Source of the DNA: Notolepis coatsorum
Lineage: Eukaryota > Chordata > Actinopteri > Aulopiformes > Paralepididae
Direction: 5' to 3'
DNA: 64,000 nt
Assembly: GCA_963971535.1 (NCBI GenBank)
Contig: OZ020601.1
Coordinates: 17,121,237 to 17,185,236 of the forward strand
Shown here: positions 1 through 64,000 of the stretch, in pieces
Layout of the letters: the number at the start of each line of letters is the position of its first letter
Position numbering within the stretch: position 1 is the stretch's first letter
Position numbers and translations under genes: made by a program
The notes under the pieces: generated by a model
Told to the model about the DNA's origin: nothing
Seen by the model: the letters and a program-made list of their open reading frames with translations, nothing else
Databases searched by the model: none

Positions 1-52
1 GTGAAGATGATGTTCCTGTGTACAGCTCCCTGTCCTAACTGATTGAGTGGTC

Positions 53-268
53 AAGACTATACTTTCAGGGATCATTTCTATAGTTTCTGACTTGTGAAAT
101 GTGTTTCTAAGGTGTTTGGTTTTGCTAACCACGATGAAGAGATGCGATATTTCCTTCTGAGCGTGAAGAGGGCAGTGGGAAATGATTAAGTTCATATACT
201 CACTGTCATTGATGATCGTTCTTTGCTTCCTAGTGCTTCATTGAGGGAGGAAATATGTTCAGAGTGGC
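53..268 (+). ncRNA. U3 snoRNA gene, class A
   Basis: Class A, 216 nt, leftmost copy. Its PSE is cut by the window edge: only gtgaagatga onward remains. The downstream spacer is unusual, with ctttaggaaatt near 355 and a 5-bp insertion near 382 not seen elsewhere in the window, so this unit is the least homogenised one. Box A and boxes C', B and C are intact; box D reads CAGA as in every copy. Confidence 0.9.
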
Positions 269-849
269 TATGTTTAACTTGTGAAATGAAAATATGTTTG
301 ATGATGCATATGAAGATAATGTTACAGATGTATTAGGTTGGTAGACAGTTTTACTTTAGGAAATTAAGCGCTTTCAGCTACTGTATGATGCTTCATGGAG
401 GTGGGACTGGCTTGGGAGTGGGGTTATATCTTTTAGCTCTTACATTGGTTGTCTGGTAAATTACAATCACTACAACTGTAATGGAAACATTTTAGAATGA
501 TGAATATATTTTTCAGATTTAAACATTGAAATCATTGACTTTGTTATTGTTAGCATTCTTACCAATATGATCCATCAATGAACACCATTTAATTTCTCGC
601 GCCTGTTGTTTTGACTGCTGTTTGATTGGTTACACCTCTTGAATGATTAAGATCAGCAATTCTTTCTCAAACAGCAAGGCTGTTTTTTAACAACAATGCT
701 ATGCTGTATTCAGTAGTGTAATAGTATTCTATGAAGTTGTGTTGTATCTTCCTCTGATCGATATGTGCGTTATAATCATGAACAGAAACAGCCATAAGTG
801 AAAATGATGTTCCTGTGTACAGCTCCCTGTCCTAACTGATTGAGTGGTC

Positions 850-1065
850 AAGACTATACTTTCAGGGATCATTTCTATAGTTTCTGACTTGTGAAATGTG
901 TTTCTAAGGTGTTTGGTTTTGCTAACCACGATGAAGAGATGCGATATTTCCTTCTGAGCGTGAAGAGGGCAGTGGGAAATGATTCAGTTCATATACTCTC
1001 TGTCATTGATGATCGTTCTTTGCTTCCTAGTGCTTCATTGAGGGAGGAAATATGTTCAGAGTGGC
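850..1065 (+). ncRNA. U3 snoRNA gene, class B
   Basis: Class B, 216 nt, promoter version gccATAAGTGAAAATG. It differs from class A inside helix III: GATTCAG in place of GATTAAG and CTCTGTC in place of CACTGTC, which leaves one U-U mismatch in a 7-bp stem. The following spacer has T5 after the small hairpin, against T6 elsewhere, giving a 791-bp unit. No box changes beyond the array-wide box D variant. Confidence 0.9.
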
Positions 1066-1416
1066 TATGTGTAACTTGTGAAATGAAAATATGTTTGATG
1101 ATGCATATGAAGATAATGTTACAGATGTATTAGGTTGGTAGACAGTTTTACTTTAGAAAATTAAGCGCTTTCAGCTATGATGCTTCATGGAGGTGGGACT
1201 GGCTTGGGAGTGGGGTTATATCTTTTAGCTCTTACATTGGTTGTCTGGTAAATTACAATCACTACAACTGTAAGGGAAACATTTTAGAATGATGAATATA
1301 TTTGTCAGATTTAAACATTGAAATCATTGACTTTGTTATTGTTAGCATTCTTACCAATATGATCCATCAATGAACACCATTTAATTTCTCGCGCCTGTTG
1401 TTTTGACTGCTGTTTG

Positions 1417-1423
1417 ATTGGTT
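1417..1423 (-). promoter_or_regulatory. Inverted CCAAT box in the DSE position (reference unit)
   Basis: ATTGGTT reads AACCAAT on the - strand and lies at -224 to -218 from the U3 start at 1641. This is where the distal sequence element of vertebrate Pol II snRNA-type genes sits. Rat U3 is known to use a CCAAT motif together with an octamer there. No perfect octamer is visible nearby. The motif recurs at the same offset before every U3 copy, except before 7905, where the LINE has moved it away. Confidence 0.6.
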
Positions 1424-1460
1424 ACACCTCTTGAATGATTAAGATCAGCAATTCTTTCTC

Positions 1461-1479
1461 AAACAGCAAGGCTGTTTTT
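1461..1479 (+). other. Small spacer hairpin followed by a T run (reference unit)
   Basis: AAACAGC (1461-1467), loop AAG, GCTGTTT (1471-1477): a perfect 7-bp inverted repeat at -180 to -164 of the U3 at 1641, running into T5 here and T6 in nearly all other units. Two units (before 3215 and before 5579) have AAATAGC, which keeps pairing as a G-U wobble in RNA. It lies between the distal and proximal promoter elements. It looks like a bacterial terminator but cannot be one in this context. Its role, if any, is unknown. Confidence 0.45.
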
Positions 1480-1581
1480 AACAACAATGCTATGCTGTAT
1501 TCAGTAGTGTAATAGTATTCTATGAAGTTGTGTTGTATCTTCCTCTGATCGATATGTGCGTTATAATCATGAACAGAAACA

Positions 1582-1598
1582 GCCGTAAGTGAAGATGA
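1582..1598 (+). promoter_or_regulatory. PSE-like proximal promoter element (reference unit)
   Basis: The motif gccgtaagtgaagatga occupies -59 to -43 of the U3 start at 1641, the standard place of the proximal sequence element bound by SNAPc. The CCNTAA core followed by a purine-rich A stretch resembles vertebrate U6 and 7SK PSEs as I remember them. Class B units have gccataagtgaaaatga. Five units toward the right end (before 51267, 53643, 56009, 56791 and 62315) have gccttaagtgaaaatga. No TATA box lies at -30, which suits Pol II rather than Pol III transcription. Confidence 0.65.
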
Positions 1599-1640
1599 TG
1601 TTCCTGTGTACAGCTCCCTGTCCTAACTGATTGAGTGGTC

Positions 1641-1856
1641 AAGACTATACTTTCAGGGATCATTTCTATAGTTTCTGACTTGTGAAATGTGTTTCTAAGG
1701 TGTTTGGTTTTGCTAACCACGATGAAGAGATGCGATATTTCCTTCTGAGCGTGAAGAGGGCAGTGGGAAATGATTAAGTTCATATACTCACTGTCATTGA
1801 TGATCGTTCTTTGCTTCCTAGTGCTTCATTGAGGGAGGAAATATGTTCAGAGTGGC
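1641..1856 (+). ncRNA. U3 snoRNA gene, class A (reference copy)
   Basis: U3 is the box C/D snoRNA of the SSU processome. It pairs with the 5' ETS and with 18S pre-rRNA in the nucleolus and guides cleavage rather than methylation. Positions 1-33 (1641-1673) match vertebrate U3, including the GAC box, box A and the ACTATA/TATAGT stem. A hairpin at 1679-1699 (CTT, GAAA, loop TGTG, TTTC, AAG) replaces the usual stem 1b with a different sequence but kept pairing. Box C' CGATGA is at 1720-1725 and box B GAGCGTGAAG at 1747-1756. Helix III is a 7-bp stem GGCAGTG/CACTGTC, and box C TGATGA is at 1798-1803. A terminal stem CTTCCT/AGGGAG follows, then box D at 1848-1851 and the GTGGC end. Box D is CAGA, not CTGA. 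The 216-nt length fits the family. Transcription is probably by Pol II from its own promoter (PSE at -59, CCAAT at -224). Confidence 0.93.
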
Positions 1857-1859
1857 TAT

Positions 1860-1880
1860 GTTTAACTTGTGAAATGAAAA
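1860..1880 (+). promoter_or_regulatory. Possible 3' box (reference unit)
   Basis: GTTTAAC begins 4 nt after the U3 end and is followed by a purine-rich stretch (gtgaaatgaaaa). Vertebrate snRNA-type genes carry a loosely conserved 3' box (GTTT, short gap, AAA and a purine-rich end) 9-19 nt downstream for 3' end formation. The match is loose and a little too close. In class B units GTTT is GTGT. This is a position-based suggestion only. Confidence 0.25.
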
Positions 1881-2432
1881 TATGTTTGATGATGCATATG
1901 AAGATAATGTTACAGATGTATTAGGTTGGTAGACAGTTTTACTTTAGAAAATTAAGCGCTTTCAGCTATGATGCTTCATGGAGGTGGGACTGGCTTGGGA
2001 GTGGGGTTATATCTTTTAGCTCTTACATTGGTTGTCTGGTAAATTACAATCACTACAACTGTAATGGAAACATTTTAGAATGATGAATATATTTGTCAGA
2101 TTTAAACATTGAAATCATTGACTTTGTTATTGTTAGCATTCTTACCAATATGATCCATCAATGAACACCATTTAATTTCTCGCGCCTGTTGTTTTGACTG
2201 CTGTTTGATTGGTTACACCTCTTGAATGATTAAGATCAGCAATTCTTTCTCAAACAGCAAGGCTGTTTTTTAACAACAATGCTATGCTGTATTCAGTAGT
2301 GTAATAGTATTCTATGAAGTTGTGTTGTATCTTCCTCTGATCGATATGTGCGTTATAATCATGAACAGAAACAGCCATAAGTGAAAATGATGTTCCTGTG
2401 TACAGCTCCCTGTCCTAACTGATTGAGTGGTC

Positions 2433-2638
2433 AAGACTATACTTTCATGGATCATTTCTATAGTTTCTGACTTGTGAAATGTGTTTCTAAGGTGTTTGGT
2501 TTTGCTAACCACGATGAAGAGATGCAATATTTCCTTCTGAGCGTGAAGAGGGCAGTGGGAAATGATTCAGTTCATATACTCTCTGTCATTGATGATCGTT
2601 CTTTGCTTCATTGAGGGAGGAAATATGTTCAGAGTGGC
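2433..2638 (+). ncRNA. U3 snoRNA gene, class Bd, box A mutated
   Basis: Class Bd, 206 nt. It lacks 10 nt between two GCTTC repeats in the terminal stem. G16 of box A is T (2448, CATGG for CAGGG), in the segment expected to pair with 18S pre-rRNA, so this copy is probably impaired. The helix II loop reads gagatgCAat. Confidence 0.85.
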
Positions 2639-3214
2639 TATGTGTAACTTGTGAAATGAAAATATGTTTGATGATGCATATGAAGATAATGTTACAGATG
2701 TATTAGGTTGGTAGACAGTTTTACTTTAGAAAATTAAGCGCTTTCAGCTATGATGCTTCATGGAGGTGGGACTGGCTTGGGAGTGGGGTTATATCTTTTA
2801 GCTCTTACATTGGTTGTCTGGTCAATTACAATCACTACAACTGTAATGGAAACATTTTAGAATGATGAATATATTTTTCAGATTTAAACATTGAAATCAT
2901 TGACTTTGTTATTGTTAGCATTCTTACCAATATGATCCATCAATGAACACCATTTAATTTCTCGCGCCTGTTGTTTTGACTGCTGTTTGATTGGTTACAC
3001 CTCTTGAATGATTAAGATCAGCAATTCTTTCTCAAATAGCAAGGCTGTTTTTTAACAACAATGCTATGCTGTATTCAGTAGTGTAATAGTATTCTATGAA
3101 GTTGTGTTGTATCTTCCTCTGATCGATATGTGCGTTATAATCATGAACAGAAACAGCCATAAGTGAAAATGATGTTCCTGTGTACAGCTCCCTGTCCTAA
3201 CTGATTGAGTGGTC

Positions 3215-3428
3215 AAGACTATACTTTCAGGGATCATTTCTATAGTTTCTGACTTGTGAAATGTGTTTCTAAGGTGTTTGGTTTTGCTAACCACGATGAA
3301 GAGATGCGATATTTCCTTCTGAGCGTGAAGAGGGCAGTGGGAAATGATTCAGTTCATATACTCTGTCATTGATGATCGTTCTTTGCTTCCTAGTGCTTCA
3401 TTGAGGGAGGAAATATGTTCAGAGTGGC
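3215..3428 (+). ncRNA. U3 snoRNA gene, class B'
   Basis: Class B', 214 nt: one CT of the CTCTCT run in the 3' side of helix III is missing (atactctgtc). The GGCAG/CTGTC base of that helix is unaffected. Box A is intact. The unit upstream has caaatagc in the spacer hairpin and the following spacer has tgacgttg. Confidence 0.88.
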
Positions 3429-4004
3429 TATGTGTAACTTGTGAAATGAAAATATGTTTGATGATGCATATGAAGATAATGTTACAGATGTATTAGGTTG
3501 GTAGACAGTTTTACTTTAGAAAATTAAGCGCTTTCAGCTATGATGCTTCATGGAGGTGGGACTGGCTTGGGAGTGGGGTTATATCTTTTAGCTCTTACAT
3601 TGGTTGTCTGGTAAATTACAATCACTACAACTGTAATGGAAACATTTTAGAATGATGAATATATTTGTCAGATTTAAACATTGAAATCATTGACGTTGTT
3701 ATTGTTAGCATTCTTACCAATATGATCCATCAATGAACACCATTTAATTTCTCGCGCCTGTTGTTTTGACTGCTGTTTGATTGGTTACACCTCTTGAATG
3801 ATTAAGATCAGCAATTCTTTCTCAAACAGCAAGGCTGTTTTTTAACAACAATGCTATGCTGTATTCAGTAGTGTAATAGTATTCTATGAAGTTGTGTTGT
3901 ATCTTCCTCTGATCGATATGTGCGTTATAATCATGAACAGAAACAGCCGTAAGTGAAGATGATGTTCCTGTGTACAGCTCCCTGTCCTAACTGATTGAGT
4001 GGTC

Positions 4005-4220
4005 AAGACTATACTTTCAGGGATCATTTCTATAGTTTCTGACTTGTGAAATGTGTTTCTAAGGTGTTTGGTTTTGCTAACCACGATGAAGAGATGCGAT
4101 ATTTCCTTCTGAGCGTGAAGAGGGCAGTGGGAAATGATTAAGTTCATATACTCACTGTCATTGATGATCGTTCTTTGCTTCCTAGTGCTTCATTGAGGGA
4201 GGAAATATGTTCAGAGTGGC
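4005..4220 (+). ncRNA. U3 snoRNA gene, class A
   Basis: Class A, 216 nt, no departures from the reference copy seen. It opens the second A-Bd-B' trimer. Confidence 0.9.
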
Positions 4221-4796
4221 TATGTTTAACTTGTGAAATGAAAATATGTTTGATGATGCATATGAAGATAATGTTACAGATGTATTAGGTTGGTAGACAG
4301 TTTTACTTTAGAAAATTAAGCGCTTTCAGCTATGATGCTTCATGGAGGTGGGACTGGCTTGGGAGTGGGGTTATATCTTTTAGCTCTTACATTGGTTGTC
4401 TGGTAAATTACAATCACTACAACTGTAATGGAAACATTTTAGAATGATGAATATATTTGTCAGATTTAAACATTGAAATCATTGACTTTGTTATTGTTAG
4501 CATTCTTACCAATATGATCCATCAATGAACACCATTTAATTTCTCGCGCCTGTTGTTTTGACTGCTGTTTGATTGGTTACACCTCTTGAATGATTAAGAT
4601 CAGCAATTCTTTCTCAAACAGCAAGGCTGTTTTTTAACAACAATGCTATGCTGTATTCAGTAGTGTAATAGTATTCTATGAAGTTGTGTTGTATCTTCCT
4701 CTGATCGATATGTGCGTTATAATCATGAACAGAAACAGCCATAAGTGAAAATGATGTTCCTGTGTACAGCTCCCTGTCCTAACTGATTGAGTGGTC

Positions 4797-5002
4797 AAGA
4801 CTATACTTTCATGGATCATTTCTATAGTTTCTGACTTGTGAAATGTGTTTCTAAGGTGTTTGGTTTTGCTAACCACGATGAAGAGATGCAATATTTCCTT
4901 CTGAGCGTGAAGAGGGCAGTGGGAAATGATTCAGTTCATATACTCTCTGTCATTGATGATCGTTCTTTGCTTCATTGAGGGAGGAAATATGTTCAGAGTG
5001 GC
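4797..5002 (+). ncRNA. U3 snoRNA gene, class Bd, box A mutated
   Basis: Class Bd, 206 nt, with the same G16-to-T change in box A (4812) as the copy 2364 bp upstream, so the two descend from one duplicated segment. Confidence 0.85.
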
Positions 5003-5578
5003 TATGTGTAACTTGTGAAATGAAAATATGTTTGATGATGCATATGAAGATAATGTTACAGATGTATTAGGTTGGTAGACAGTTTTACTTTAGAAAATTA
5101 AGCGCTTTCAGCTATGATGCTTCATGGAGGTGGGACTGGCTTGGGAGTGGGGTTATATCTTTTAGCTCTTACATTGGTTGTCTGGTAAATTACAATCACT
5201 ACAACTGTAATGGAAACATTTTAGAATGATGAATATATTTTTCAGATTTAAACATTGAAATCATTGACTTTGTTATTGTTAGCATTCTTACCAATATGAT
5301 CCATCAATGAACACCATTTAATTTCTCGCGCCTGTTGTTTTGACTGCTGTTTGATTGGTTACACCTCTTGAATGATTAAGATCAGCAATTCTTTCTCAAA
5401 TAGCAAGGCTGTTTTTTAACAACAATGCTATGCTGTATTCAGTAGTGTAATAGTATTCTATGAAGTTGTGTTGTATCTTCCTCTGATCGATATGTGCGTT
5501 ATAATCATGAACAGAAACAGCCATAAGTGAAAATGATGTTCCTGTGTACAGCTCCCTGTCCTAACTGATTGAGTGGTC

Positions 5579-5792
5579 AAGACTATACTTTCAGGGATCA
5601 TTTCTATAGTTTCTGACTTGTGAAATGTGTTTCTAAGGTGTTTGGTTTTGCTAACCACGATGAAGAGATGCGATATTTCCTTCTGAGCGTGAAGAGGGCA
5701 GTGGGAAATGATTCAGTTCATATACTCTGTCATTGATGATCGTTCTTTGCTTCCTAGTGCTTCATTGAGGGAGGAAATATGTTCAGAGTGGC
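5579..5792 (+). ncRNA. U3 snoRNA gene, class B', upstream of the LINE
   Basis: Class B', 214 nt. Its own promoter is intact (caaatagc variant in the spacer hairpin). The LINE lies 364 bp downstream of its 3' end and so should not affect its transcription directly. Confidence 0.88.
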
Positions 5793-6157
5793 TATGTGTA
5801 ACTTGTGAAATGAAAATATGTTTGATGATGCATATGAAGATAATGTTACAGATGTATTAGGTTGGTAGACAGTTTTACTTTAGAAAATTAAGCGCTTTCA
5901 GCTATGATGCTTCATGGAGGTGGGACTGGCTTGGGAGTGGGGTTATATCTTTTAGCTCTTACATTGGTTGTCTGGTAAATTACAATCACTACAACTGTAA
6001 TGGAAACATTTTAGAATGATGAATATATTTGTCAGATTTAAACATTGAAATCATTGACGTTGTTATTGTTAGCATTCTTACCAATATGATCCATCAATGA
6101 ACACCATTTAATTTCTCGCGCCTGTTGTTTTGACTGCTGTTTGATTGGTTACACCCT

Positions 6158-7219
6158 CTGCAATTTGCATATCGCCCCAACAGGTCCACGGAGGACGCCA
6201 TAGCCCATGTGCTGCACACAGCAGCATCACATCTGGACAAGAGGCAGGGGAACTATGTGAGAATGCTGTTCATCGACTACAGCTCAGCATTCAATACCAT
6301 AGTCCCCTCCAAACTCATAGCCAAGCTCAGGGACCTGGGCTTGAACTATGACCTGTGCCAGTGGGTCCTGGACTTCCTGACGGGCAGACCCCATGTGGTA
6401 AGAGCCGGCAACTGCACCTCCTCATCCATCATGCTCAACATAGGGGCCCCCCAGGGCTGTGTTCTGAGCCCCCTCCTCTACTCCCTGTACACACATGACT
6501 GCGTAGCACAGCGGAACAACAACACCATCATCAAATTTGCTGATGACACAGTAGTGGTGGGCCTGATCTCTGCCAACGACGAAAGGGCCTACCTGGAAGA
6601 GGTAGAGAACCTGTCACAGTGGTGTCAGGAGAACTGCCTCTCCCTGAACGTCAGCAAAACAAAAGAGATGATTGTGGACTTCAGGAGGTCGGGGGTCAAG
6701 GACTACAGCCCCCTCAGCATCGACGGGGCACCAGTTGAGAGAGTGAACAGTTTCAAGTACCTCGGAGCCCACATATCCGAGGACTTGACATGGACCACAC
6801 ACATTGACAGTGTTGTGAAGAAGGCACGACAACGCCTCTACTTCCTCAGGCGCCTAAGGAAGTTCCAAGTCAGTCAGAAGATCCTTAGGAACTTCTACTC
6901 ATGTACAATAGAGAGCATCCTGACCGGCAACATCACCTCCTGGTTTGGGAATAGCACTGCAAAAGACCGTAGCAGACTACAAAGAGTGACACGTTCAGCC
7001 GAACGCACAATTAGAGGGGGGCTTCCCACCCTCCAGAACATTTACAACAAGCGGTGCAAGGGGAAGGCTAAGAGAATTATTAAGGACTCGAGCCACCCGA
7101 ACAACTGCCTCTTTGAACTGCTGCCGTCAGGCAAGCGATACCGGAGTCTTATGGCGAGCACAGAAAGACTCAGAAGGAGCTTCTATCCCCAGGCCATCAG
7201 GCTGCTAAACGAACAATAA
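6158..7219 (+). CDS. LINE reverse transcriptase, C-terminal fragment
   Basis: The frame runs 353 residues from the 5' truncation point (Leu-Gln-Phe-Ala-Tyr, typical of the RT fingers in this group) to the TAA at 7217-7219, with no internal stop. The first in-frame Met is residue 36 (6263); an apparent start at 6209 is GTG, so no true start exists in the fragment. Motif A is FIDYSSAF with Asp at residue 40. Motif B is GAPQG at 96-100, and the catalytic FADD is at 127-130. Thumb and C-terminal regions follow, ending in a typical [12 protein letters not shown] tail. The RT would copy LINE RNA at the target site in the nucleus, but without the endonuclease and a promoter this copy cannot move by itself. 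Codon and base composition are clearly unlike the AT-rich array. Confidence 0.92.
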
Positions 7220-7239
7220 TCGCTAAACGAACAATAATC
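7204..7239 (+). repeat. 18-bp tandem duplication over the LINE stop codon
   Basis: The 18-mer gctaaacgaacaataatc occurs twice in a row (7204-7221 and 7222-7239). The first copy contains the functional TAA, so the second lies in the 3' UTR and the protein is unchanged. Confidence 0.9.
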
Positions 7240-7692
7240 ACTATGCAACAACCATCAAATGCACACAGCACACACACCCACACGCACACACTCACTCAAA
7301 CAAACAACACACTGCAGCACCCACTCTCCACACTTTAGATCACACAAACACACTTACACTTTATATTTATTGATAAAGGATTTGCACTACAACTCGTACA
7401 CCTACTGTGAATTGTACCTAAACTGCACCTCGTCCATTTATGCCTTGCACTATATAGTATTGTATATTAGTACACTGCACAGTATTGTATATTGTATGGT
7501 AACTACGTCTACGAACATTGTACATATGTCTAAACTGAACACTGTGACCTCTTTTTTTACTTCTAATTTTTACTATTTTTACTATGTTTTTATTTCATAC
7601 TTATCTTGTCATGCACAGTCTCTGGAGCGCAACAGTAAGAAGCATTTTGTACAAAAGTATTCTGTACTTCTGTATGACAACTATTAAAGAAA
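7220..7692 (+). other. LINE 3' UTR
   Basis: Non-coding tail of the LINE. It includes a CA-rich stretch at about 7261-7296, two imperfect copies of agtattgtatatt around 7457 and 7481, T-rich runs near 7550-7590, and a 3' end of tattaaagaaa. A 142-codon frame at 7259-7687 has low-complexity composition (His, Thr, Tyr rich) and I do not consider it a gene. Confidence 0.8.
7683..7688 (+). promoter_or_regulatory. Polyadenylation-like hexamer at the LINE end
   Basis: ATTAAA, the commonest variant of the AATAAA signal, 4 nt before the element/host junction. No poly(A) tail follows, as expected for CR1/L2 elements, which end in short 3' repeats rather than poly(A). Confidence 0.4.
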
Positions 7693-7904
7693 CTTGAATG
7701 ATTAAGATCAGCAATTCTTTCTCAAACAGCAAGGCTGTTTTTTAACAACAATGCTATGCTGTATTCAGTAGTGTAATAGTATTCTATGAAGTTGTGTTGT
7801 ATCTTCCTCTGATCGATATGTGCGTTATAATCATGAACAGAAACAGCCGTAAGTGAAGATGATGTTCCTGTGTACAGCTCCCTGTCCTAACTGATTGAGT
7901 GGTC

Positions 7905-8120
7905 AAGACTATACTTTCAGGGATCATTTCTATAGTTTCTGACTTGTGAAATGTGTTTCTAAGGTGTTTGGTTTTGCTAACCACGATGAAGAGATGCGAT
8001 ATTTCCTTCTGAGCGTGAAGAGGGCAGTGGGAAATGATTAAGTTCATATACTCACTGTCATTGATGATCGTTCTTTGCTTCCTAGTGCTTCATTGAGGGA
8101 GGAAATATGTTCAGAGTGGC
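7905..8120 (+). ncRNA. U3 snoRNA gene, class A, distal promoter separated by the LINE
   Basis: Class A, 216 nt, gene body like the reference. Its CCAAT motif (6147-6153) now lies about 1.75 kb upstream because the LINE was inserted a few bases after it. PSE and spacer hairpin remain in place. Basal transcription might persist but normal activation is probably lost. Confidence 0.88.
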
Positions 8121-8696
8121 TATGTTTAACTTGTGAAATGAAAATATGTTTGATGATGCATATGAAGATAATGTTACAGATGTATTAGGTTGGTAGACAG
8201 TTTTACTTTAGAAAATTAAGCGCTTTCAGCTATGATGCTTCATGGAGGTGGGACTGGCTTGGGAGTGGGGTTATATCTTTTAGCTCTTACATTGGTTGTC
8301 TGGTAAATTACAATCACTACAACTGTAATGGAAACATTTTAGAATGATGAATATATTTGTCAGATTTAAACATTGAAATCATTGACTTTGTTATTGTTAG
8401 CATTCTTACCAATATGATCCATCAATGAACACCATTTAATTTCTCGCGCCTGTTGTTTTGACTGCTGTTTGATTGGTTACACCTCTTGAATGATTAAGAT
8501 CAGCAATTCTTTCTCAAACAGCAAGGCTGTTTTTTAACAACAATGCTATGCTGTATTCAGTAGTGTAATAGTATTCTATGAAGTTGTGTTGTATCTTCCT
8601 CTGATCGATATGTGCGTTATAATCATGAACAGAAACAGCCATAAGTGAAAATGATGTTCCTGTGTACAGCTCCCTGTCCTAACTGATTGAGTGGTC

Positions 8697-8902
8697 AAGA
8701 CTATACTTTCATGGATCATTTCTATAGTTTCTGACTTGTGAAATGTGTTTCTAAGGTGTTTGGTTTTGCTAACCACGATGAAGAGATGCAATATTTCCTT
8801 CTGAGCGTGAAGAGGGCAGTGGGAAATGATTCAGTTCATATACTCTCTGTCATTGATGATCGTTCTTTGCTTCATTGAGGGAGGAAATATGTTCAGAGTG
8901 GC
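8697..8902 (+). ncRNA. U3 snoRNA gene, class Bd, box A mutated
   Basis: Class Bd, 206 nt, third carrier of the G16-to-T box A change (8712), in the third trimer. Confidence 0.85.
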
Positions 8903-9478
8903 TATGTGTAACTTGTGAAATGAAAATATGTTTGATGATGCATATGAAGATAATGTTACAGATGTATTAGGTTGGTAGACAGTTTTACTTTAGAAAATTA
9001 AGCGCTTTCAGCTATGATGCTTCATGGAGGTGGGACTGGCTTGGGAGTGGGGTTATATCTTTTAGCTCTTACATTGGTTGTCTGGTAAATTACAATCACT
9101 ACAACTGTAATGGAAACATTTTAGAATGATGAATATATTTTTCAGATTTAAACATTGAAATCATTGACTTTGTTATTGTTAGCATTCTTACCAATATGAT
9201 CCATCAATGAACACCATTTAATTTCTCGCGCCTGTTGTTTTGACTGCTGTTTGATTGGTTACACCTCTTGAATGATTAAGATCAGCAATTCTTTCTCAAA
9301 CAGCAAGGCTGTTTTTTAACAACAATGCTATGCTGTATTCAGTAGTGTAATAGTATTCTATGAAGTTGTGTTGTATCTTCCTCTGATCGATATGTGCGTT
9401 ATAATCATGAACAGAAACAGCCATAAGTGAAAATGATGTTCCTGTGTACAGCTCCCTGTCCTAACTGATTGAGTGGTC

Positions 9479-9692
9479 AAGACTATACTTTCAGGGATCA
9501 TTTCTATAGTTTCTGACTTGTGAAATGTGTTTCTAAGGTGTTTGGTTTTGCTAACCACGATGAAGAGATGCGATATTTCCTTCTGAGCGTGAAGAGGGCA
9601 GTGGGAAATGATTCAGTTCATATACTCTGTCATTGATGATCGTTCTTTGCTTCCTAGTGCTTCATTGAGGGAGGAAATATGTTCAGAGTGGC
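9479..9692 (+). ncRNA. U3 snoRNA gene, class B'
   Basis: Class B', 214 nt. Unlike the two earlier B' copies, its upstream hairpin is the common AAACAGC form, and the following spacer has ttgacatcattg. Confidence 0.88.
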
Positions 9693-10268
9693 TATGTGTA
9701 ACTTGTGAAATGAAAATATGTTTGATGATGCATATGAAGATAATGTTACAGATGTATTAGGTTGGTAGACAGTTTTACTTTAGAAAATTAAGCGCTTTCA
9801 GCTATGATGCTTCATGGAGGTGGGACTGGCTTGGGAGTGGGGTTATATCTTTTAGCTCTTACATTGGTTGTCTGGTAAATTACAATCACTACAACTGTAA
9901 TGGAAACATTTTAGAATGATGAATATATTTTTCAGATTTAAACATTGACATCATTGACTTTGTTATTGTTAGCATTCTTACCAATATGATCCATCAATGA
10001 ACACCATTTAATTTCTCGCGCCTGTTGTTTTGACTGCTGTTTGATTGGTTACACCTCTTGAATGATTAAGATCAGCAATTCTTTCTCAAACAGCAAGGCT
10101 GTTTTTTAACAACAATGCTATGCTGTATTCAGTAGTGTAATAGTATTCTATGAAGTTGTGTTGTATCTTCCTCTGATCGATATGTGCGTTATAGACATGA
10201 ACAGAAACAGCCATAAGTGAAAATGATGTTCCTGTGTACAGCTCCCTGTCCTAACTGATTGTGTGGTC

Positions 10269-20544: not shown

Positions 20545-20750
20545 AAGACTATACTTTCAGGGATCATTTCTATAGTTTCTGACTTGTGAAATGTGTTTCT
20601 AAGGTGTTTGGTTTTGCTAACCACGATGAAGAGATGCAATATTTCCTTCTGAGCGTGAAGAGGGCAGTGGGAAATGATTCAGTTCATATACTCTCTGTCA
20701 TTGATGATCGTTCTTTGCTTCATTGAGGGAGGAAATATGTTCAGAGTGGC
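20545..20750 (+). ncRNA. U3 snoRNA gene, class Bd
   Basis: Class Bd, 206 nt, gagatgCAat in helix II, box A normal, unlike the left-end Bd copies. Confidence 0.88.
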
Positions 20751-53642: not shown

Positions 53643-53858
53643 AAGACTATACTTTCAGGGATCATTTCTATAGTTTCTGACTTGTGAAATGTGTTTCTAA
53701 GGTGTTTGGTTTTGCTAACCACGATGAAGAGATGCGATATTTCCTTCTGAGCGTGAAGAGGGCAGTGGGAAATGATTCAGTTCATATACTCTCTGTCATT
53801 GATGATCGTTCTTTGCTTCCTAGTGCTTCATTGAGGGAGGAAATATGTTCAGAGTGGC
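53643..53858 (+). ncRNA. U3 snoRNA gene, class B, third promoter version
   Basis: Class B, 216 nt, PSE gccTTAAG version, gatAtattagg, and a private ttacttCagaa in the spacer. Confidence 0.9.
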
Positions 53859-54434
53859 TATGTGTAACTTGTGAAATGAAAATATGTTTGATGATGCATA
53901 TGAAGATAATGTTACAGATATATTAGGTTGGTAGACAGTTTTACTTCAGAAAATTAAGCGCTTTCAGCTATGATGCTTCATGGAGGTGGGACTGGCTTGG
54001 GAGTGGGGTTATATCTTTTAGCTCTTACATTGGTTGTCTGGTAAATTACAATCACTACAACTGTAATGGAAACATTTTAGAATGATGAATATATTTGTCA
54101 GATTTAAACATTGAAATCATTGACTTTGTTATTGTTAGCATTCTTACCAATATGATCCATCAATGAACACCATTTAATTTCTCGCGCCTGTTGTTTTGAC
54201 TGCTGTTTGATTGGTTACACCTCTTGAATGATTAAGATCAGCAATTCTTTCTCAAACAGCAAGGCTGTTTTTTAACAACAATGCTATGCTGTATTCAGTA
54301 GTGTAATAGTATTCTATGAAGTTGTGTTGTATCTTCTTCTGATCGATATGTGCGTTATAATCATGAACAGAAACAGCCATAAGTGAAAATGATGTTCCTG
54401 TGTACAGCTCCCTGTCCTAACTGATTGAGTGGTC

Positions 54435-54640
54435 AAGACTATACTTTCAGGGATCATTTCTATAGTTTCTGACTTGTGAAATGTGTTTCTAAGGTGTTTG
54501 GTTTTGCTAACCACGATGAAGAGATGCAATATTTCCTTCTGAGCGTGAAGAGGGCAGTGGGAAATGATTCAGTTCATATACTCTCTGTCATTGATGATCG
54601 TTCTTTGCTTCATTGAGGGAGGAAATATGTTCAGAGTGGC
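54435..54640 (+). ncRNA. U3 snoRNA gene, class Bd, T9 run downstream
   Basis: Class Bd, 206 nt. The 3' flank has gaaacaaa followed by nine Ts (54663-54671), one step longer than the T8 version. Upstream private cttcTtctgatc. Confidence 0.87.
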
Positions 54641-55216
54641 TATGTGTAACTTGTGAAACAAATTTTTTTTTGATGATGCATATGAAGATAATGTTACAGA
54701 TGTATTAGGTTGGTAGACAGTTTTACTTTAGAAAATTAAGCGCTTTCAGCTATGATGCTTCATGGAGGTGGGACTGGCTTGGGAGTGGGGTTATATCTTT
54801 TAGCTCTTACATTGGTTGTCTGGTAAATTACAATCACTACAACTGTAATGGAAACATTTTAGAATGATGAATATATTTGTCAGATTTAAACATTGAAATC
54901 ATTGACTTTGTTATTGTTAGCATTCTTACCAATATGATCCATCAATGAACACCATTTAATTTCTCGCGCCTGTTGTTTTGACTGCTGTTTGATTGGTTAC
55001 ACCTCTTGAATGATTAAGATCAGCAATTCTTTCTCAAACAGCAAGGCTGTTTTTTAACAACAATGCTATGCTGTATTCAGTAGTGTAATAGTATTCTATG
55101 AAGTTGTGTTGTATCTTCCTCTGATCGATATGTGCGTTATAATCATGAACAGAAACAGCCGTAAGTGAAGATGATGTTCCTGTGTACAGCTCCCTGTCCT
55201 AACTGATTGAGTGGTC

Positions 55217-55432
55217 AAGACTATACTTTCAGGGATCATTTCTATAGTTTCTGACTTGTGAAATGTGTTTCTAAGGTGTTTGGTTTTGCTAACCACGATG
55301 AAGAGATGCGATATTTCCTTCTGAGCGTGAAGAGGGCAGTGGGAAATGATTAAGTTCATATACTCACTGTCATTGATGATCGTTCTTTGCTTCCTAGTGC
55401 TTCATTGAGGGAGGAAATATGTTCAGAGTGGC
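55217..55432 (+). ncRNA. U3 snoRNA gene, class A
   Basis: Class A, 216 nt, between two T9 Bd units. Confidence 0.9.
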
Positions 55433-56008
55433 TATGTTTAACTTGTGAAATGAAAATATGTTTGATGATGCATATGAAGATAATGTTACAGATGTATTAG
55501 GTTGGTAGACAGTTTTACTTTAGAAAATTAAGCGCTTTCAGCTATGATGCTTCATGGAGGTGGGACTGGCTTGGGAGTGGGGTTATATCTTTTAGCTCTT
55601 ACATTGGTTGTCTGGTAAATTACAATCACTACAACTGTAATGGAAACATTTTAGAATGATGAATATATTTGTCAGATTTAAACATTGAAATCATTGACTT
55701 TGTTATTGTTAGCATTCTTACCAATATGATCCATCAATGAACACCATTTAATTTCTCGCGCCTGTTGTTTTGACTGCTGTTTGATTGGTTACACCTCTTG
55801 AATGATTAAGATCAGCAATTCTTTCTCAAACAGCAAGGCTGTTTTTTAACAACAATGCTATGCTGTATTCAGTAGTGTAATAGTATTCTATGAAGTTGTG
55901 TTGTATCTTCCTCTGATCGATATGTGCGTTATAATCATGAACAGAAACAGCCTTAAGTGAAAATGATGTTCCTGTGTACAGCTCCCTGTCCTAACTGATT
56001 GAGTGGTC

Positions 56009-56214
56009 AAGACTATACTTTCAGGGATCATTTCTATAGTTTCTGACTTGTGAAATGTGTTTCTAAGGTGTTTGGTTTTGCTAACCACGATGAAGAGATG
56101 CAATATTTCCTTCTGAGCGTGAAGAGGGCAGTGGGAAATGATTCAGTTCATATACTCTCTGTCATTGATGATCGTTCTTTGCTTCATTGAGGGAGGAAAT
56201 ATGTTCAGAGTGGC
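56009..56214 (+). ncRNA. U3 snoRNA gene, class Bd, T9 run downstream
   Basis: Class Bd, 206 nt, with the gccTTAAG promoter version and the T9 flank together, a combination found only here. Confidence 0.87.
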
Positions 56215-56790
56215 TATGTGTAACTTGTGAAACAAATTTTTTTTTGATGATGCATATGAAGATAATGTTACAGATGTATTAGGTTGGTAGACAGTTTTAC
56301 TTTAGAAAATTAAGCGCTTTCAGCTATGATGCTTCATGGAGGTGGGACTGGCTTGGGAGTGGGGTTATATCTTTTAGCTCTTACATTGGTTGTCTGGTAA
56401 ATTACAATCACTACAACTGTAATGGAAACATTTTAGAATGATGAATATATTTGTCAGATTTAAACATTGAAATCATTGACTTTGTTATTGTTAGCATTCT
56501 TACCAATATGATCCATCAATGAACACCATTTAATTTCTCGCGCCTGTTGTTTTGACTGCTGTTTGATTGGTTACACCTCTTGAATGATTAAGATCAGCAA
56601 TTCTTTCTCAAACAGCAAGGCTGTTTTTTAACAACAATGCTATGCTGTATTCAGTAGTGTAATAGTATTCTATGAAGTTGTGTTGTATCTTCCTCTGATC
56701 GATATGTGCGTTATAATCATGAACAGAAACAGCCTTAAGTGAAAATGATGTTCCTGTGTACAGCTCCCTGTCCTAACTGATTGAGTGGTC

Positions 56791-57006
56791 AAGACTATAC
56801 TTTCAGGGATCATTTCTATAGTTTCTGACTTGTGAAATGTGTTTCTAAGGTGTTTGGTTTTGCTAACCACGATGAAGAGATGCGATATTTCCTTCTGAGC
56901 GTGAAGAGGGCAGTGGGAAATGATTCAGTTCATATACTCTCTGTCATTGATGATCGTTCTTTGCTTCCTAGTGCTTCATTGAGGGAGGAAATATGTTCAG
57001 AGTGGC
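56791..57006 (+). ncRNA. U3 snoRNA gene, class B, third promoter version
   Basis: Class B, 216 nt, gccTTAAG promoter and gatAtattagg. Confidence 0.9.
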
Positions 57007-57582
57007 TATGTGTAACTTGTGAAATGAAAATATGTTTGATGATGCATATGAAGATAATGTTACAGATATATTAGGTTGGTAGACAGTTTTACTTTAGAAA
57101 ATTAAGCGCTTTCAGCTATGATGCTTCATGGAGGTGGGACTGGCTTGGGAGTGGGGTTATATCTTTTAGCTCTTACATTGGTTGTCTGGTAAATTACAAT
57201 CACTACAACTGTAATGGAAACATTTTAGAATGATGAATATATTTGTCAGATTTAAACATTGAAATCATTGACTTTGTTATTGTTAGCATTCTTACCAATA
57301 TGATCCATCAATGAACACCATTTAATTTCTCGCGCCTGTTGTTTTGACTGCTGTTTGATTGGTTACACCTCTTGAATGATTAAGATCAGCAATTCTTTCT
57401 CAAACAGCAAGGCTGTTTTTTAACAACAATGCTATGCTGTATTCAGTAGTGTAATAGTATTCTATGAAGTTGTGTTGTATCTTCCTCTGATCGATATGTG
57501 CGTTATAATCATGAACAGAAACAGCCGTAAGTGAAGATGATGTTCCTGTGTACAGCTCCCTGTCCTAACTGATTGAGTGGTC

Positions 57583-57798
57583 AAGACTATACTTTCAGGG
57601 ATCATTTCTATAGTTTCTGACTTGTGAAATGTGTTTCTAAGGTGTTTGGTTTTGCTAACCACGATGAAGAGATGCGATATTTCCTTCTGAGCGTGAAGAG
57701 GGCAGTGGGAAATGATTAAGTTCATATACTCACTGTCATTGATGATCGTTCTTTGCTTCCTAGTGCTTCATTGAGGGAGGAAATATGTTCAGAGTGGC
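57583..57798 (+). ncRNA. U3 snoRNA gene, class A
   Basis: Class A, 216 nt, no changes at diagnostic sites. Confidence 0.9.
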
Positions 57799-58374
57799 TA
57801 TGTTTAACTTGTGAAATGAAAATATGTTTGATGATGCATATGAAGATAATGTTACAGATGTATTAGGTTGGTAGACAGTTTTACTTTAGAAAATTAAGCG
57901 CTTTCAGCTATGATGCTTCATGGAGGTGGGACTGGCTTGGGAGTGGGGTTATATCTTTTAGCTCTTACATTGGTTGTCTGGTAAATTACAATCACTACAA
58001 CTGTAATGGAAACATTTTAGAATGATGAATATATTTGTCAGATTTAAACATTGAAATCATTGACTTTGTTATTGTTAGCATTCTTACCAATATGATCCAT
58101 CAATGAACACCATTTAATTTCTCGCGCCTGTTGTTTTGACTGCTGTTTGATTGGTTACACCTCTTGAATGATTAAGATCAGCAATTCTTTCTCAAACAGC
58201 AAGGCTGTTTTTTAACAACAATGCTATGCTGTATTCAGTAGTGTAATAGTATTCTATGAAGTTGTGTTGTATCTTCCTCTGATCGATATGTGCGTTATAA
58301 TCATGAACAGAAACAGCCATAAGTGAAAATGATGTTCCTGTGTACAGCTCCCTGTCCTAACTGATTGAGTGGTC

Positions 58375-58580
58375 AAGACTATACTTTCAGGGATCATTTC
58401 TATAGTTTCTGACTTGTGAAATGTGTTTCTAAGGTGTTTGGTTTTGCTAACCACGATGAAGAGATGCAATATTTCCTTCTGAGCGTGAAGAGGGCAGTGG
58501 GAAATGATTCAGTTCATATACTCTCTGTCATTGATGATCGTTCTTTGCTTCATTGAGGGAGGAAATATGTTCAGAGTGGC
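58375..58580 (+). ncRNA. U3 snoRNA gene, class Bd, T8 run downstream
   Basis: Class Bd, 206 nt, T8 flank and aattatttctc in the next spacer: the displaced third copy of the 2366-bp trimer. Confidence 0.87.
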
Positions 58581-59156
58581 TATGTGTAACTTGTGAAACG
58601 AAATTTTTTTTGATGATGCATATGAAGATAATGTTACAGATGTATTAGGTTGGTAGACAGTTTTACTTTAGAAAATTAAGCGCTTTCAGCTATGATGCTT
58701 CATGGAGGTGGGACTGGCTTGGGAGTGGGGTTATATCTTTTAGCTCTTACATTGGTTGTCTGGTAAATTACAATCACTACAACTGTAATGGAAACATTTT
58801 AGAATGATGAATATATTTGTCAGATTTAAACATTGAAATCATTGACTTTGTTATTGTTAGCATTCTTACCAATATGATCCATCAATGAACACCATTTAAT
58901 TTCTCGCGCCTGTTGTTTTGACTGCTGTTTGATTGGTTACACCTCTTGAATGATTAAGATCAGCAATTATTTCTCAAACAGCAAGGCTGTTTTTTAACAA
59001 CAATGCTATGCTGTATTCAGTAGTGTAATAGTATTCTATGAAGTTGTGTTGTATCTTCCTCTGATCGATATGTGCGTTATAATCATGAACAGAAACAGCC
59101 GTAAGTGAAGATGATGTTCCTGTGTACAGCTCCCTGTCCTAACTGATTGAGTGGTC

Positions 59157-59372
59157 AAGACTATACTTTCAGGGATCATTTCTATAGTTTCTGACTTGTG
59201 AAATGTGTTTCTAAGGTGTTTGGTTTTGCTAACCACGATGAAGAGATGCGATATTTCCTTCTGAGCGTGAAGAGGGCAGTGGGAAATGATTAAGTTCATA
59301 TACTCACTGTCATTGATGATCGTTCTTTGCTTCCTAGTGCTTCATTGAGGGAGGAAATATGTTCAGAGTGGC
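59157..59372 (+). ncRNA. U3 snoRNA gene, class A
   Basis: Class A, 216 nt; preceded by the aattatttctc spacer. Confidence 0.9.
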
Positions 59373-59948
59373 TATGTTTAACTTGTGAAATGAAAATATG
59401 TTTGATGATGCATATGAAGATAATGTTACAGATGTATTAGGTTGGTAGACAGTTTTACTTTAGAAAATTAAGCGCTTTCAGCTATGATGCTTCATGGAGG
59501 TGGGACTGGCTTGGGAGTGGGGTTATATCTTTTAGCTCTTACATTGGTTGTCTGGTAAATTACAATCACTACAACTGTAATGGAAACATTTTAGAATGAT
59601 GAATATATTTGTCAGATTTAAACATTGAAATCATTGACTTTGTTATTGTTAGCATTCTTACCAATATGATCCATCAATGAACACCATTTAATTTCTCGCG
59701 CCTGTTGTTTTGACTGCTGTTTGATTGGTTACACCTCTTGAATGATTAAGATCAGCAATTCTTTCTCAAACAGCAAGGCTGTTTTTTAACAACAATGCTA
59801 TGCTGTATTCAGTAGTGTAATAGTATTCTATGAAGTTGTGTTGTATCTTCCTCTGATCGATATGTGCGTTATAATCATGAACAGAAACAGCCGTAAGTGA
59901 AGATGATGTTCCTGTGTACAGCTCCCTGTCCTAACTGATTGAGTGGTC

Positions 59949-60164
59949 AAGACTATACTTTCAGGGATCATTTCTATAGTTTCTGACTTGTGAAATGTGT
60001 TTCTAAGGTGTTTGGTTTTGCTAACCACGATGAAGAGATGCGATATTTCCTTCTGAGCGTGAAGAGGGCAGTGGGAAATGATTAAGTTCATATACTCACT
60101 GTCATTGATGATCGTTCTTTGCTTCCTAGTGCTTCATTGAGGGAGGAAATATGTTCAGAGTGGC
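59949..60164 (+). ncRNA. U3 snoRNA gene, class A
   Basis: Class A, 216 nt, no changes at diagnostic sites. Confidence 0.9.
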
Positions 60165-60740
60165 TATGTTTAACTTGTGAAATGAAAATATGTTTGATGA
60201 TGCATATGAAGATAATGTTACAGATGTATTAGGTTGGTAGACAGTTTTACTTTAGAAAATTAAGCGCTTTCAGCTATGATGCTTCATGGAGGTGGGACTG
60301 GCTTGGGAGTGGGGTTATATCTTTTAGCTCTTACATTGGTTGTCTGGTAAATTACAATCACTACAACTGTAATGGAAACATTTTAGAATGATGAATATAT
60401 TTGTCAGATTTAAACATTGAAATCATTGACTTTGTTATTGTTAGCATTCTTACCAATATGATCCATCAATGAACACCATTTAATTTCTCGCGCCTGTTGT
60501 TTTGACTGCTGTTTGATTGGTTACACCTCTTGAATGATTAAGATCAGCAATTCTTTCTCAAACAGCAAGGCTGTTTTTTAACAACAATGCTATGCTGTAT
60601 TCAGTAGTGTAATAGTATTCTATGAAGTTGTGTTGTATCTTCCTCTGATCGATATGTGCGTTATAATCATGAACAGAAACAGCCATAAGTGAAAATGATG
60701 TTCCTGTGTACAGCTCCCTGTCCTAACTGATTGAGTGGTC

Positions 60741-60956
60741 AAGACTATACTTTCAGGGATCATTTCTATAGTTTCTGACTTGTGAAATGTGTTTCTAAGG
60801 TGTTTGGTTTTGCTAACCACGATGAAGAGATGCGATATTTCCTTCTGAGCGTGAAGAGGGCAGTGGGAAATGATTCAGTTCATATACTCTCTGTCATTGA
60901 TGATCGTTCTTTGCTTCCTAGTGCTTCATTGAGGGAGGAAATATGTTCAGAGTGGC
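60741..60956 (+). ncRNA. U3 snoRNA gene, class B
   Basis: Class B, 216 nt, gccATAAG promoter with gatAtattagg downstream, as at 49683. Confidence 0.9.
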
Positions 60957-61532
60957 TATGTGTAACTTGTGAAATGAAAATATGTTTGATGATGCATATG
61001 AAGATAATGTTACAGATATATTAGGTTGGTAGACAGTTTTACTTTAGAAAATTAAGCGCTTTCAGCTATGATGCTTCATGGAGGTGGGACTGGCTTGGGA
61101 GTGGGGTTATATCTTTTAGCTCTTACATTGGTTGTCTGGTAAATTACAATCACTACAACTGTAATGGAAACATTTTAGAATGATGAATATATTTGTCAGA
61201 TTTAAACATTGAAATCATTGACTTTGTTATTGTTAGCATTCTTACCAATATGATCCATCAATGAACACCATTTAATTTCTCGCGCCTGTTGTTTTGACTG
61301 CTGTTTGATTGGTTACACCTCTTGAATGATTAAGATCAGCAATTCTTTCTCAAACAGCAAGGCTGTTTTTTAACAACAATGCTATGCTGTATTCAGTAGT
61401 GTAATAGTATTCTATGAAGTTGTGTTGTATCTTCCTCTGATCGATATGTGCGTTATAATCATGAACAGAAACAGCCGTAAGTGAAGATGATGTTCCTGTG
61501 TACAGCTCCCTGTCCTAACTGATTGAGTGGTC

Positions 61533-61738
61533 AAGACTATACTTTCAGGGATCATTTCTATAGTTTCTGACTTGTGAAATGTGTTTCTAAGGTGTTTGGT
61601 TTTGCTAACCACGATGAAGAGATGCGATATTTCCTTCTGAGCGTGAAGAGGGCAGTGGGAAATGATTAAGTTCATATACTCACTGTCATTGATGATCGTT
61701 CTTTGCTTCATTGAGGGAGGAAATATGTTCAGAGTGGC
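61533..61738 (+). ncRNA. U3 snoRNA gene, class Ad
   Basis: 206 nt, class A with the 10-nt deletion and the class A flank tgtttaac, as at 44169. Confidence 0.88.
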
Positions 61739-62314
61739 TATGTTTAACTTGTGAAATGAAAATATGTTTGATGATGCATATGAAGATAATGTTACAGATG
61801 TATTAGGTTGGTAGACAGTTTTACTTTAGAAAATTAAGCGCTTTCAGCTATGATGCTTCATGGAGGTGGGACTGGCTTGGGAGTGGGGTTATATCTTTTA
61901 GCTCTTACATTGGTTGTCTGGTAAATTACAATCACTACAACTGTAATGGAAACATTTTAGAATGATGAATATATTTGTCAGATTTAAACATTGAAATCAT
62001 TGACTTTGTTATTGTTAGCATTCTTACCAATATGATCCATCAATGAACACCATTTAATTTCTCGCGCCTGTTGTTTTGACTGCTGTTTGATTGGTTACAC
62101 CTCTTGAATGATTAAGATCAGCAATTCTTTCTCAAACAGCAAGGCTGTTTTTTAACAACAATGCTATGCTGTATTCAGTAGTGTAATAGTATTCTATGAA
62201 GTTGTGTTGTATCTTCCTCTGATCGATATGTGCGTTATAATCATGAACAGAAACAGCCTTAAGTGAAAATGATGTTCCTGTGTACAGCTCCCTGTCCTAA
62301 CTGATTGAGTGGTC

Positions 62315-62530
62315 AAGACTATACTTTCAGGGATCATTTCTATAGTTTCTGACTTGTGAAATGTGTTTCTAAGGTGTTTGGTTTTGCTAACCACGATGAA
62401 GAGATGCGATATTTCCTTCTGAGCGTGAAGAGGGCAGTGGGAAATGATTCAGTTCATATACTCTCTGTCATTGATGATCGTTCTTTGCTTCCTAGTGCTT
62501 CATTGAGGGAGGAAATATGTTCAGAGTGGC
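62315..62530 (+). ncRNA. U3 snoRNA gene, class B, third promoter version
   Basis: Class B, 216 nt, gccTTAAG promoter and gatAtattagg. Confidence 0.9.
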
Positions 62531-63106
62531 TATGTGTAACTTGTGAAATGAAAATATGTTTGATGATGCATATGAAGATAATGTTACAGATATATTAGGT
62601 TGGTAGACAGTTTTACTTTAGAAAATTAAGCGCTTTCAGCTATGATGCTTCATGGAGGTGGGACTGGCTTGGGAGTGGGGTTATATCTTTTAGCTCTTAC
62701 ATTGGTTGTCTGGTAAATTACAATCACTACAACTGTAATGGAAACATTTTAGAATGATGAATATATTTGTCAGATTTAAACATTGAAATCATTGACTTTG
62801 TTATTGTTAGCATTCTTACCAATATGATCCATCAATGAACACCATTTAATTTCTCGCGCCTGTTGTTTTGACTGCTGTTTGATTGGTTACACCTCTTGAA
62901 TGATTAAGATCAGCAATTCTTTCTCAAACAGCAAGGCTGTTTTTTAACAACAATGCTATGCTGTATTCAGTAGTGTAATAGTATTCTATGAAGTTGTGTT
63001 GTATCTTCCTCTGATCGATATGTGCGTTATAATCATGAACAGAAACAGCCGTAAGTGAAGATGATGTTCCTGTGTACAGCTCCCTGTCCTAACTGATTGA
63101 GTGGTC

Positions 63107-63322
63107 AAGACTATACTTTCAGGGATCATTTCTATAGTTTCTGACTTGTGAAATGTGTTTCTAAGGTGTTTGGTTTTGCTAACCACGATGAAGAGATGCG
63201 ATATTTCCTTCTGAGCGTGAAGAGGGCAGTGGGAAATGATTAAGTTCATATACTCACTGTCATTGATGATCGTTCTTTGCTTCCTAGTGCTTCATTGAGG
63301 GAGGAAATATGTTCAGAGTGGC
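63107..63322 (+). ncRNA. U3 snoRNA gene, class A
   Basis: Class A, 216 nt, last complete copy in the window. Confidence 0.9.
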
Positions 63323-63898
63323 TATGTTTAACTTGTGAAATGAAAATATGTTTGATGATGCATATGAAGATAATGTTACAGATGTATTAGGTTGGTAGAC
63401 AGTTTTACTTTAGAAAATTAAGCGCTTTCAGCTATGATGCTTCATGGAGGTGGGACTGGCTTGGGAGTGGGGTTATATCTTTTAGCTCTTACATTGGTTG
63501 TCTGGTAAATTACAATCACTACAACTGTAATGGAAACATTTTAGAATGATGAATATATTTGTCAGATTTAAACATTGAAATCATTGACTTTGTTATTGTT
63601 AGCATTCTTACCAATATGATCCATCAATGAACACCATTTAATTTCTCGCGCCTGTTGTTTTGACTGCTGTTTGATTGGTTACACCTCTTGAATGATTAAG
63701 ATCAGCAATTCTTTCTCAAACAGCAAGGCTGTTTTTTAACAACAATGCTATGCTGTATTCAGTAGTGTAATAGTATTCTATGAAGTTGTGTTGTATCTTC
63801 CTCTGATCGATATGTGCGTTATAATCATGAACAGAAACAGCCATAAGTGAAAATGATGTTCCTGTGTACAGCTCCCTGTCCTAACTGATTGAGTGGTC

Positions 63899-64000
63899 AA
63901 GACTATACTTTCAGGGATCATTTCTATAGTTTCTGACTTGTGAAATGTGTTTCTAAGGTGTTTGGTTTTGCTAACCACGATGAAGAGATGCAATATTTCC
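63899..64000 (+). ncRNA. U3 snoRNA gene, partial at right edge
   Basis: Only the first 102 nt are present (5' domain, hinge, box C', start of helix II). gagatgCAat and the gccATAAG promoter predict class Bd. Box A is normal. Confidence 0.85.

Follow-up and report, generated by a model that had tools for sequence, protein, structure and literature searches.

We analysed a stretch of 64,000 nt from the genome of the fish Notolepis coatsorum (hereafter the window; C46:17121237-17185236), which lies within a tandem array of genes for U3, a small nucleolar RNA (snoRNA) needed for production of the small ribosomal subunit. A scan with the Rfam U3 covariance model, RF00012, gave 80 matches in the window, all on the + strand. 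Seventy-nine are complete and score 137.7–151.4 bits; the last, truncated where the window ends, scores 66.1 bits. All 80 exceed the gathering score of 34 bits. The original prediction, a giant array of U3 genes read from the letters of the sequence, named such a model as its check and is borne out by every copy.

Extent and copy number of the array

The array continues beyond both ends of the window, as had been predicted, and we located both of its edges on the same contig, which is 93.7 Mb long in a genome of 3.42 Gb and 4787 contigs. The whole array reaches from ~C46:16951100 to ~17231500, a distance of ~280 kb. At the left edge, complete copies begin at 16951752; before the first of them lies a unit that no longer has a U3 and, farther out, minisatellite and LINE-like (long interspersed nuclear element) sequence. 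At the right edge, the last copy begins at 17230720, and the unit that follows it ends abruptly within AAGAC.

Array copies were counted over C46:16900001-17205000 and 17226001-17244000, which include the window; the intervening 21 kb lies outside the count. These pieces contain 314 complete U3 copies and three partial matches, with all 317 on the same strand. Of the partial matches, two belong to a single U3 that an insertion has broken into halves, and one is truncated where a piece ends. We also counted U3 5ʹ ends across the genome, with the initial 49 bases of U3 as the pattern and a tolerance of 3 mismatches. Of the 351 matches, 349 were forward and 2 reverse; the reversed control had none. 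Subtracting six dispersed genes, described below, and one stray array-type copy leaves at most 344, and hence the array holds about 340 U3 copies, roughly four times the ~80 first proposed. Among the matches listed, a lone exact array-type 5ʹ end lies at C46:18709755-18709803, ~1.48 Mb downstream of the array.

Units, sequence classes and exchange

The units are arranged head to tail in a single orientation. Successive U3 starts in the window lie 782, 790 or 792 bp apart in all but three of the 79 units, for which the distances are 791, 797 and 2326 bp. There are 46 distinct sequences among these 79 units, and 149 among the 305 array units of normal length (700–810 bp). The main classes are defined by position 136 (C or A), positions 149-150 (CT, CA, CG or deleted), a deletion at 172-181, position 222 (G or T, with T in 104 of 313 gene-centred array copies) and promoter positions -56 and -47. 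Across the 313 copies, sites 136, 150 and 222 are linked (r2 0.55–0.80), as are -56 and -47 (r2 0.88). Representatives of the classes are listed with the other features of the window in Table 1.

Table 1. Positions of U3 copies and associated features in the window
Feature	Position	Strand	Details	Basis
U3 tandem array, part of	1..64000	+		80 RF00012 matches, edges, window position
First complete U3 copy of the window	53..268	+	216 nt	RF00012 146.7 bits
U3 copy, class B	850..1065	+	216 nt; 136C, 150T, 222G	RF00012 149 bits, class sites
ATTGG, presumed inverted CCAAT, possible distal element	1417..1421	+	~-220 of the U3 at 1641	Read from sequence
Element resembling a proximal sequence element (PSE)	1581..1598	+	~-60 to -43 of the U3 at 1641; CCGTAA at 1583-1588	By eye, weak resemblance
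U3 copy, class A	1641..1856	+	216 nt; 136A, 150A, 222T	RF00012 146.7 bits, class sites
Possible 3ʹ box	1860..1877	+	GTTT...GAAATGA, just 3ʹ of the U3 at 1641	Read from sequence
U3 copy, 214-nt class	3215..3428	+	Without 149-150	RF00012 142.2 bits, class sites
Truncated non-LTR (long terminal repeat) retrotransposon	6156..7692	+	In the spacer of the unit starting at 5579	RVT_1 E 1.3e-20, consensus alignment
U3 copy, short class	20545..20750	+	206 nt; without 10 nt at 172-181	RF00012 151.4 bits, alignment
Last U3 copy, cut by the window end	63899..64000	+	Model positions 1-102	RF00012 66.1 bits

When the string of classes is read along the array by eye, multi-unit blocks recur. Of the spacings compared, a separation of three units gives the fewest differences (11.97); next neighbours have 15.04, and units 20 or more apart 14.4–14.9. 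Insertions interrupt seven array units, one of them within the U3. One insertion is common to three units that are 99.6–99.7% identical over 1.94 kb, and so was copied together with its unit. Recurring blocks and a copied insertion, in an array of one orientation, are the marks of concerted evolution by exchange within the array.

A further insertion in the array matches the LINE of the window at 88.6%. The latter accounts for the 2326-bp unit, in which positions 1-577 and 2115-2326 match positions 1-579 and 581-792 of the array consensus. Its RVT_1 match falls in a 336-aa frame at window positions 6209-7219, and we take the element to be L2-like. By eye, a near-identical reverse transcriptase stretch is present in the left flank of the array (L009:422-1006).

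Diversity within the array is concentrated in four 44-base bins of the consensus (133-176, 221-264, 441-484 and 705-748; pi 0.018–0.028). The bin at 89-132 has a pi of 0.014, and the remaining bins are at or below 0.005. There is an excess of G and T on the sense strand, with a GC skew of 0.24 in the gene and 0.15 in the spacer, and an AT skew of -0.19 and -0.13, respectively. Five 10-kb segments from the left flank do not share this skew.

A second, dispersed type of U3 gene

We queried the genome with a dispersed gene plus flanking DNA and scored 40 of 801 candidates, so that the counts are lower bounds. There are at least six dispersed U3 genes, of which C21 carries four and C1 and C4 one each. 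These six are 94–100% identical to one of their number, the L003 copy, over 470–650 bp that include upstream DNA. At least five further dispersed matches are 76–85% identical. The five dispersed genes that were read score 153.9–155.7 bits with the U3 model, just above the complete copies of the window.

An array copy and a dispersed copy from C21 share 177 of 214 bases (83%) and differ at 37, with 68 of 74 bases shared in the 5ʹ domain. The dispersed gene matches the array over the U3 alone (positions 297-513 of the 650-base query), and the flanks are unmatched. Conversely, of 354 candidate matches to the array spacer, 40 were scored and every one of these falls within the array. By eye, and partly in the computed fold, a small 3ʹ hairpin (GUCUCuuagGGGAC) is possible in the dispersed type and absent from the array type. 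Judged by sequence, the array and dispersed genes are two types of U3.

Other RNA gene arrays in the genome

The genome carries several RNA gene arrays, since U8 and U2 genes are also found in tandem. For U8, scoring 51 of 189,753 candidates gave at least 30 matches, including 16 tandem units ~988 bp apart at C30:2244819-2259760 and further matches on C30, C31, C27, C6 and C21. Three of the U8 copies outside the array were read: the copy on C31 has upstream DNA like that of the array, and those on C27 and C6 have different upstream sequences. U8, like U3, is thus present both as an array and as dispersed copies. For U2, 46 of 120,553 candidates were scored; seven copies are spaced 658–696 bp apart at C37:9302-13547, and others cluster at C13:181007577-181097090. 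U8 is called unique to vertebrates in one report (PMC8993069).

Motifs of the array copies

We checked each array copy for seven motifs: the 5ʹ end with box A, boxes C', B, C and D, and the two sides of the basal stem. All seven are exact in 257 of the 314 complete array copies and in 74 of the 79 complete copies of the window. The 5ʹ end and boxes C', B and C had been described as exact in every unit, which is true of most units rather than all. The first 33 bases, comprising the 5ʹ end with box A, are exact in 291 of the 314 copies and identical in the aligned dispersed copies. Box B (GAGCGTGAAG) is present in 310 of the 314 and box C (ATTGATGATCG) in 300. The basal stem of the 3ʹ domain has 14 pairs; in an alignment of six distinct rows, every cell (100%) is paired, and three of the pairs show changes on both sides.

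Upstream of the U3 genes, CCRTAA occurs at ~-58 in other array units, in the same place as in the unit of Table 1. PSEs of vertebrate genes lie at this distance. By eye, two copies from the U8 array carry CCATAA and the dispersed U3 genes carry CCATGA at similar places upstream, and no such CCRTAA-like motif is evident in the upstream regions of five U2 and three other U8 genes. We also sought a PSE shared among the upstream regions of U3, U8 and U2 genes. The PSE remains a weak assignment because ungapped matches to the array U3 element extend to just 9–12 of 18 bases. Downstream, the possible 3ʹ box reads GTGT instead of GTTT in the other class. It had been proposed that each unit is a free-standing gene with its own promoter; CCRTAA near -58 and the inverted CCAAT near -220, both weak motif matches, make this plausible.

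We compared the U3 hinge with the 5ʹ external transcribed spacer, taken as the 2.5 kb upstream of two 18S copies that look interrupted by foreign DNA. For both U3 types, complementarity was no better than in shuffled sequences, with a best score of 23.5 and shuffled medians of 22.5–23.5. By eye, sequence resembling a reverse-transcriptase element begins ~60 bases upstream of these two copies (L038 and L039). Sequences within 3 mismatches of the 18S rRNA 5ʹ end number 76 and are spread over many contigs.

Discussion

What is the function of a 280-kb array of U3 genes? We think it probable that this is a high-dosage array that works like the arrays of ribosomal DNA (rDNA) or 5S genes, providing the bulk supply of U3, most likely in oogenesis and the early embryo, with the dispersed genes providing for ordinary cells. 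In this model, each 0.79-kb unit would be one U3 gene with its own promoter of the small nuclear RNA (snRNA) type, transcribed by RNA polymerase II. Unequal exchange and gene conversion would keep the copies alike. The array would deliver U3 for processing of pre-18S rRNA when demand is extreme, as may be the case in oogenesis and early embryos, and the six or so dispersed genes of the second type would serve other cells. Transcription, the polymerase and the division of labour between oocyte and soma are the parts of this model that we infer. More tentatively, and with rather less confidence than in the supply role itself, the genome may encode two sets of RNAs for ribosome assembly, with ~340 array U3 genes and the U8 array for the oocyte, and dispersed U3 and U8 genes for the soma.

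Support for a functional array comes from comparison of the two U3 types. In a structure derived from the array copy, 34 pairs of the 3ʹ domain were compared between the array and the C21 copy. Ten pairs have changed and eight of these are still paired, four of them with both bases altered. When the same substitutions were placed at random, the mean was 0.73 such double-sided pairs, and 0.35% of 20,000 runs had four or more. Controls in which the structure was slid gave 0–1 double-sided pairs rather than four, and 43.0–55.1% of cells paired rather than 88.9%. Furthermore, none of 500 shuffles reached the observed values for cells paired, cells changed on both sides or covariation score. Hence, the predicted helices stay paired between the U3 types more than chance predicts.

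Several observations weigh against a functional array, and some of them favour the alternative that it is satellite DNA: a unit derived from a U3 gene and multiplied by unequal exchange, with most or all copies silent and with homogenisation, rather than selection, maintaining the resemblance to U3. Deriving the structure from the array copy biases the pair counts towards the array, and a predicted helix that uses box B, which we expect to be protein-bound, and a 3-pair hairpin were left out before the pairs were counted. With class B in place of class A, seven pairs remain paired and three are double-sided, for which the chance probability is 2%. Four double-sided pairs were reached by 83 of the 500 shuffles, and the number of further pair types by 482. 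When the 3ʹ domain is folded alone, class A (z -2.61) is the one array class that clearly beats shuffles, the z values of the other three being -1.19 (B), -1.84 (C) and -1.37 (D); the dispersed type gives -2.32. A 10-nt deletion removes positions 172-181 of the 3ʹ domain in 93 of 305 units. The C' box is AUGAAGA in the array and AUGAUGA in the dispersed type, and box D is CAGA, where the usual sequence is CUGA and the Rfam consensus reads UCUGAG. The promoter motifs appear weak. Among array copies, 48 of 216 columns are variable in U3 compared with 82 of 576 in the spacer (Fisher p 0.009); for the box columns the figure is 18 of 73, more than the spacer (p 0.025) and similar to other U3 columns (30 of 143, p 0.60). 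By this test of column variability, no purifying selection is visible within the array, because the gene varies more than the spacer. Like the variability of the gene, the deviating C' and D boxes and the weak folding of three classes, the interrupted units, one of them broken within U3, and array flanks whose longest reading frames show LINE-like sequence and simple repeats, with no host gene evident by eye, suit a satellite.

We nonetheless consider a silent satellite rather unlikely. All of the checked motifs are retained in most copies, the paired changes preserve helices relative to the dispersed type, and the array copies score close to the dispersed genes with the U3 model. Position 150 can pair with U124 where it is A, in 101 of 305 units, or G, in 16; T, found in 160 units, leaves a U-U mismatch there. 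The unusual box D looks like a feature of the lineage rather than decay of the array, because the dispersed copies share CAGA; the sequence GTTCAGAG is exact in 313 of the 314 array copies and is also found in the aligned dispersed copies. As for the lack of visible constraint, redundancy among hundreds of copies can explain it. Variant types per base reach 0.24–0.30 over the U3 and its 3ʹ flank, fall to 0.20 in the 100 bp immediately upstream and are lowest, at 0.13, in the middle of the spacer. This excess over the gene and its immediate flanks relative to the distal spacer would fit mutation driven by heavy transcription of U3 in the germline, although attributing the peak over the transcribed unit to transcription-linked mutation is speculation. 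From its sequence, the array is most likely a functional, high-dosage locus and possibly oocyte-specific.

An alternative explanation is that the array is the main source of U3 in every tissue, and that the dispersed genes are minor or dying. The numbers, ~340 array copies and six close dispersed ones, are consistent with this, and the five more divergent dispersed matches may be decayed. However, the six dispersed genes look maintained, since their high identity extends into the upstream DNA and those that were read score higher than the array copies; we regard an all-purpose array as quite improbable. Long, near-identical repeats are difficult to assemble, and a short array could in principle have been inflated by misassembly. 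This is very hard to reconcile with an assembly that has no N in the covered array pieces, includes both edges, and contains 149 distinct sequences among 305 units, with blocks and distinct insertions that anchor their order.

In vertebrates, U3 is usually regarded as a few-copy gene. A literature search confined to titles and the openings of abstracts, with preprints outside its scope, found no description of a vertebrate U3 array, and a search of viral and prokaryote collections with a pattern running from box B to box C found no match. However, a 2019 bioRxiv preprint by Pagano and co-workers reportedly describes zebrafish U3 and U8 genes of a maternal type in tandem repeats and of a somatic type that are solitary. 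Each RNA would thus have two types, the tandem one linked with the egg and the solitary one with the soma, which resembles the arrangement described here. The genome of N. coatsorum, at 3.42 Gb, is larger than that of zebrafish; if the zebrafish genes are arranged as reported, the window would show the same design on a large scale. Vertebrate U1 and U2 snRNA genes also form tandem arrays with a short unit and one snRNA-type gene per unit, although their products are spliceosomal RNAs rather than a U3 snoRNA. The proposal that this could be an undescribed, rDNA-like locus is therefore supported as to its likeness to rDNA and too strong as to novelty of kind, because zebrafish U3 and U8 genes of the maternal type are reportedly tandem and other RNA genes are well known to form large arrays.

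A close parallel for a division between oocyte and soma is offered by the 5S rRNA genes of zebrafish and Xenopus, in which a large array of one type exists beside a few genes of another. One study gives 2330 maternal-type 5S genes on zebrafish chromosome 4 and 12 somatic-type genes (PMC5513064), and distinct maternal and somatic types of 45S are described in this and another report (PMC5513064, PMC11883429). In contrast to U3, which is a processing RNA with what we take to be a polymerase II-like promoter, 5S RNA is a product of RNA polymerase III and a component of the ribosome. U3 genes can also be multi-copy without being tandem: in Euglena gracilis there are at least 14 U3 gene variants, and PCR for tandem U3 genes found none (PMC2784804).

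The array is a large addition to an already known kind of RNA gene array. It offers a compact system for studying homogenisation of a gene array other than that of rRNA. Moreover, the class-specific sites that distinguish the ~340 array genes from the six close dispersed genes, together with a U8 gene family that is likewise divided into array and dispersed copies, allow a direct test of whether the egg has ribosome-processing RNAs of its own.

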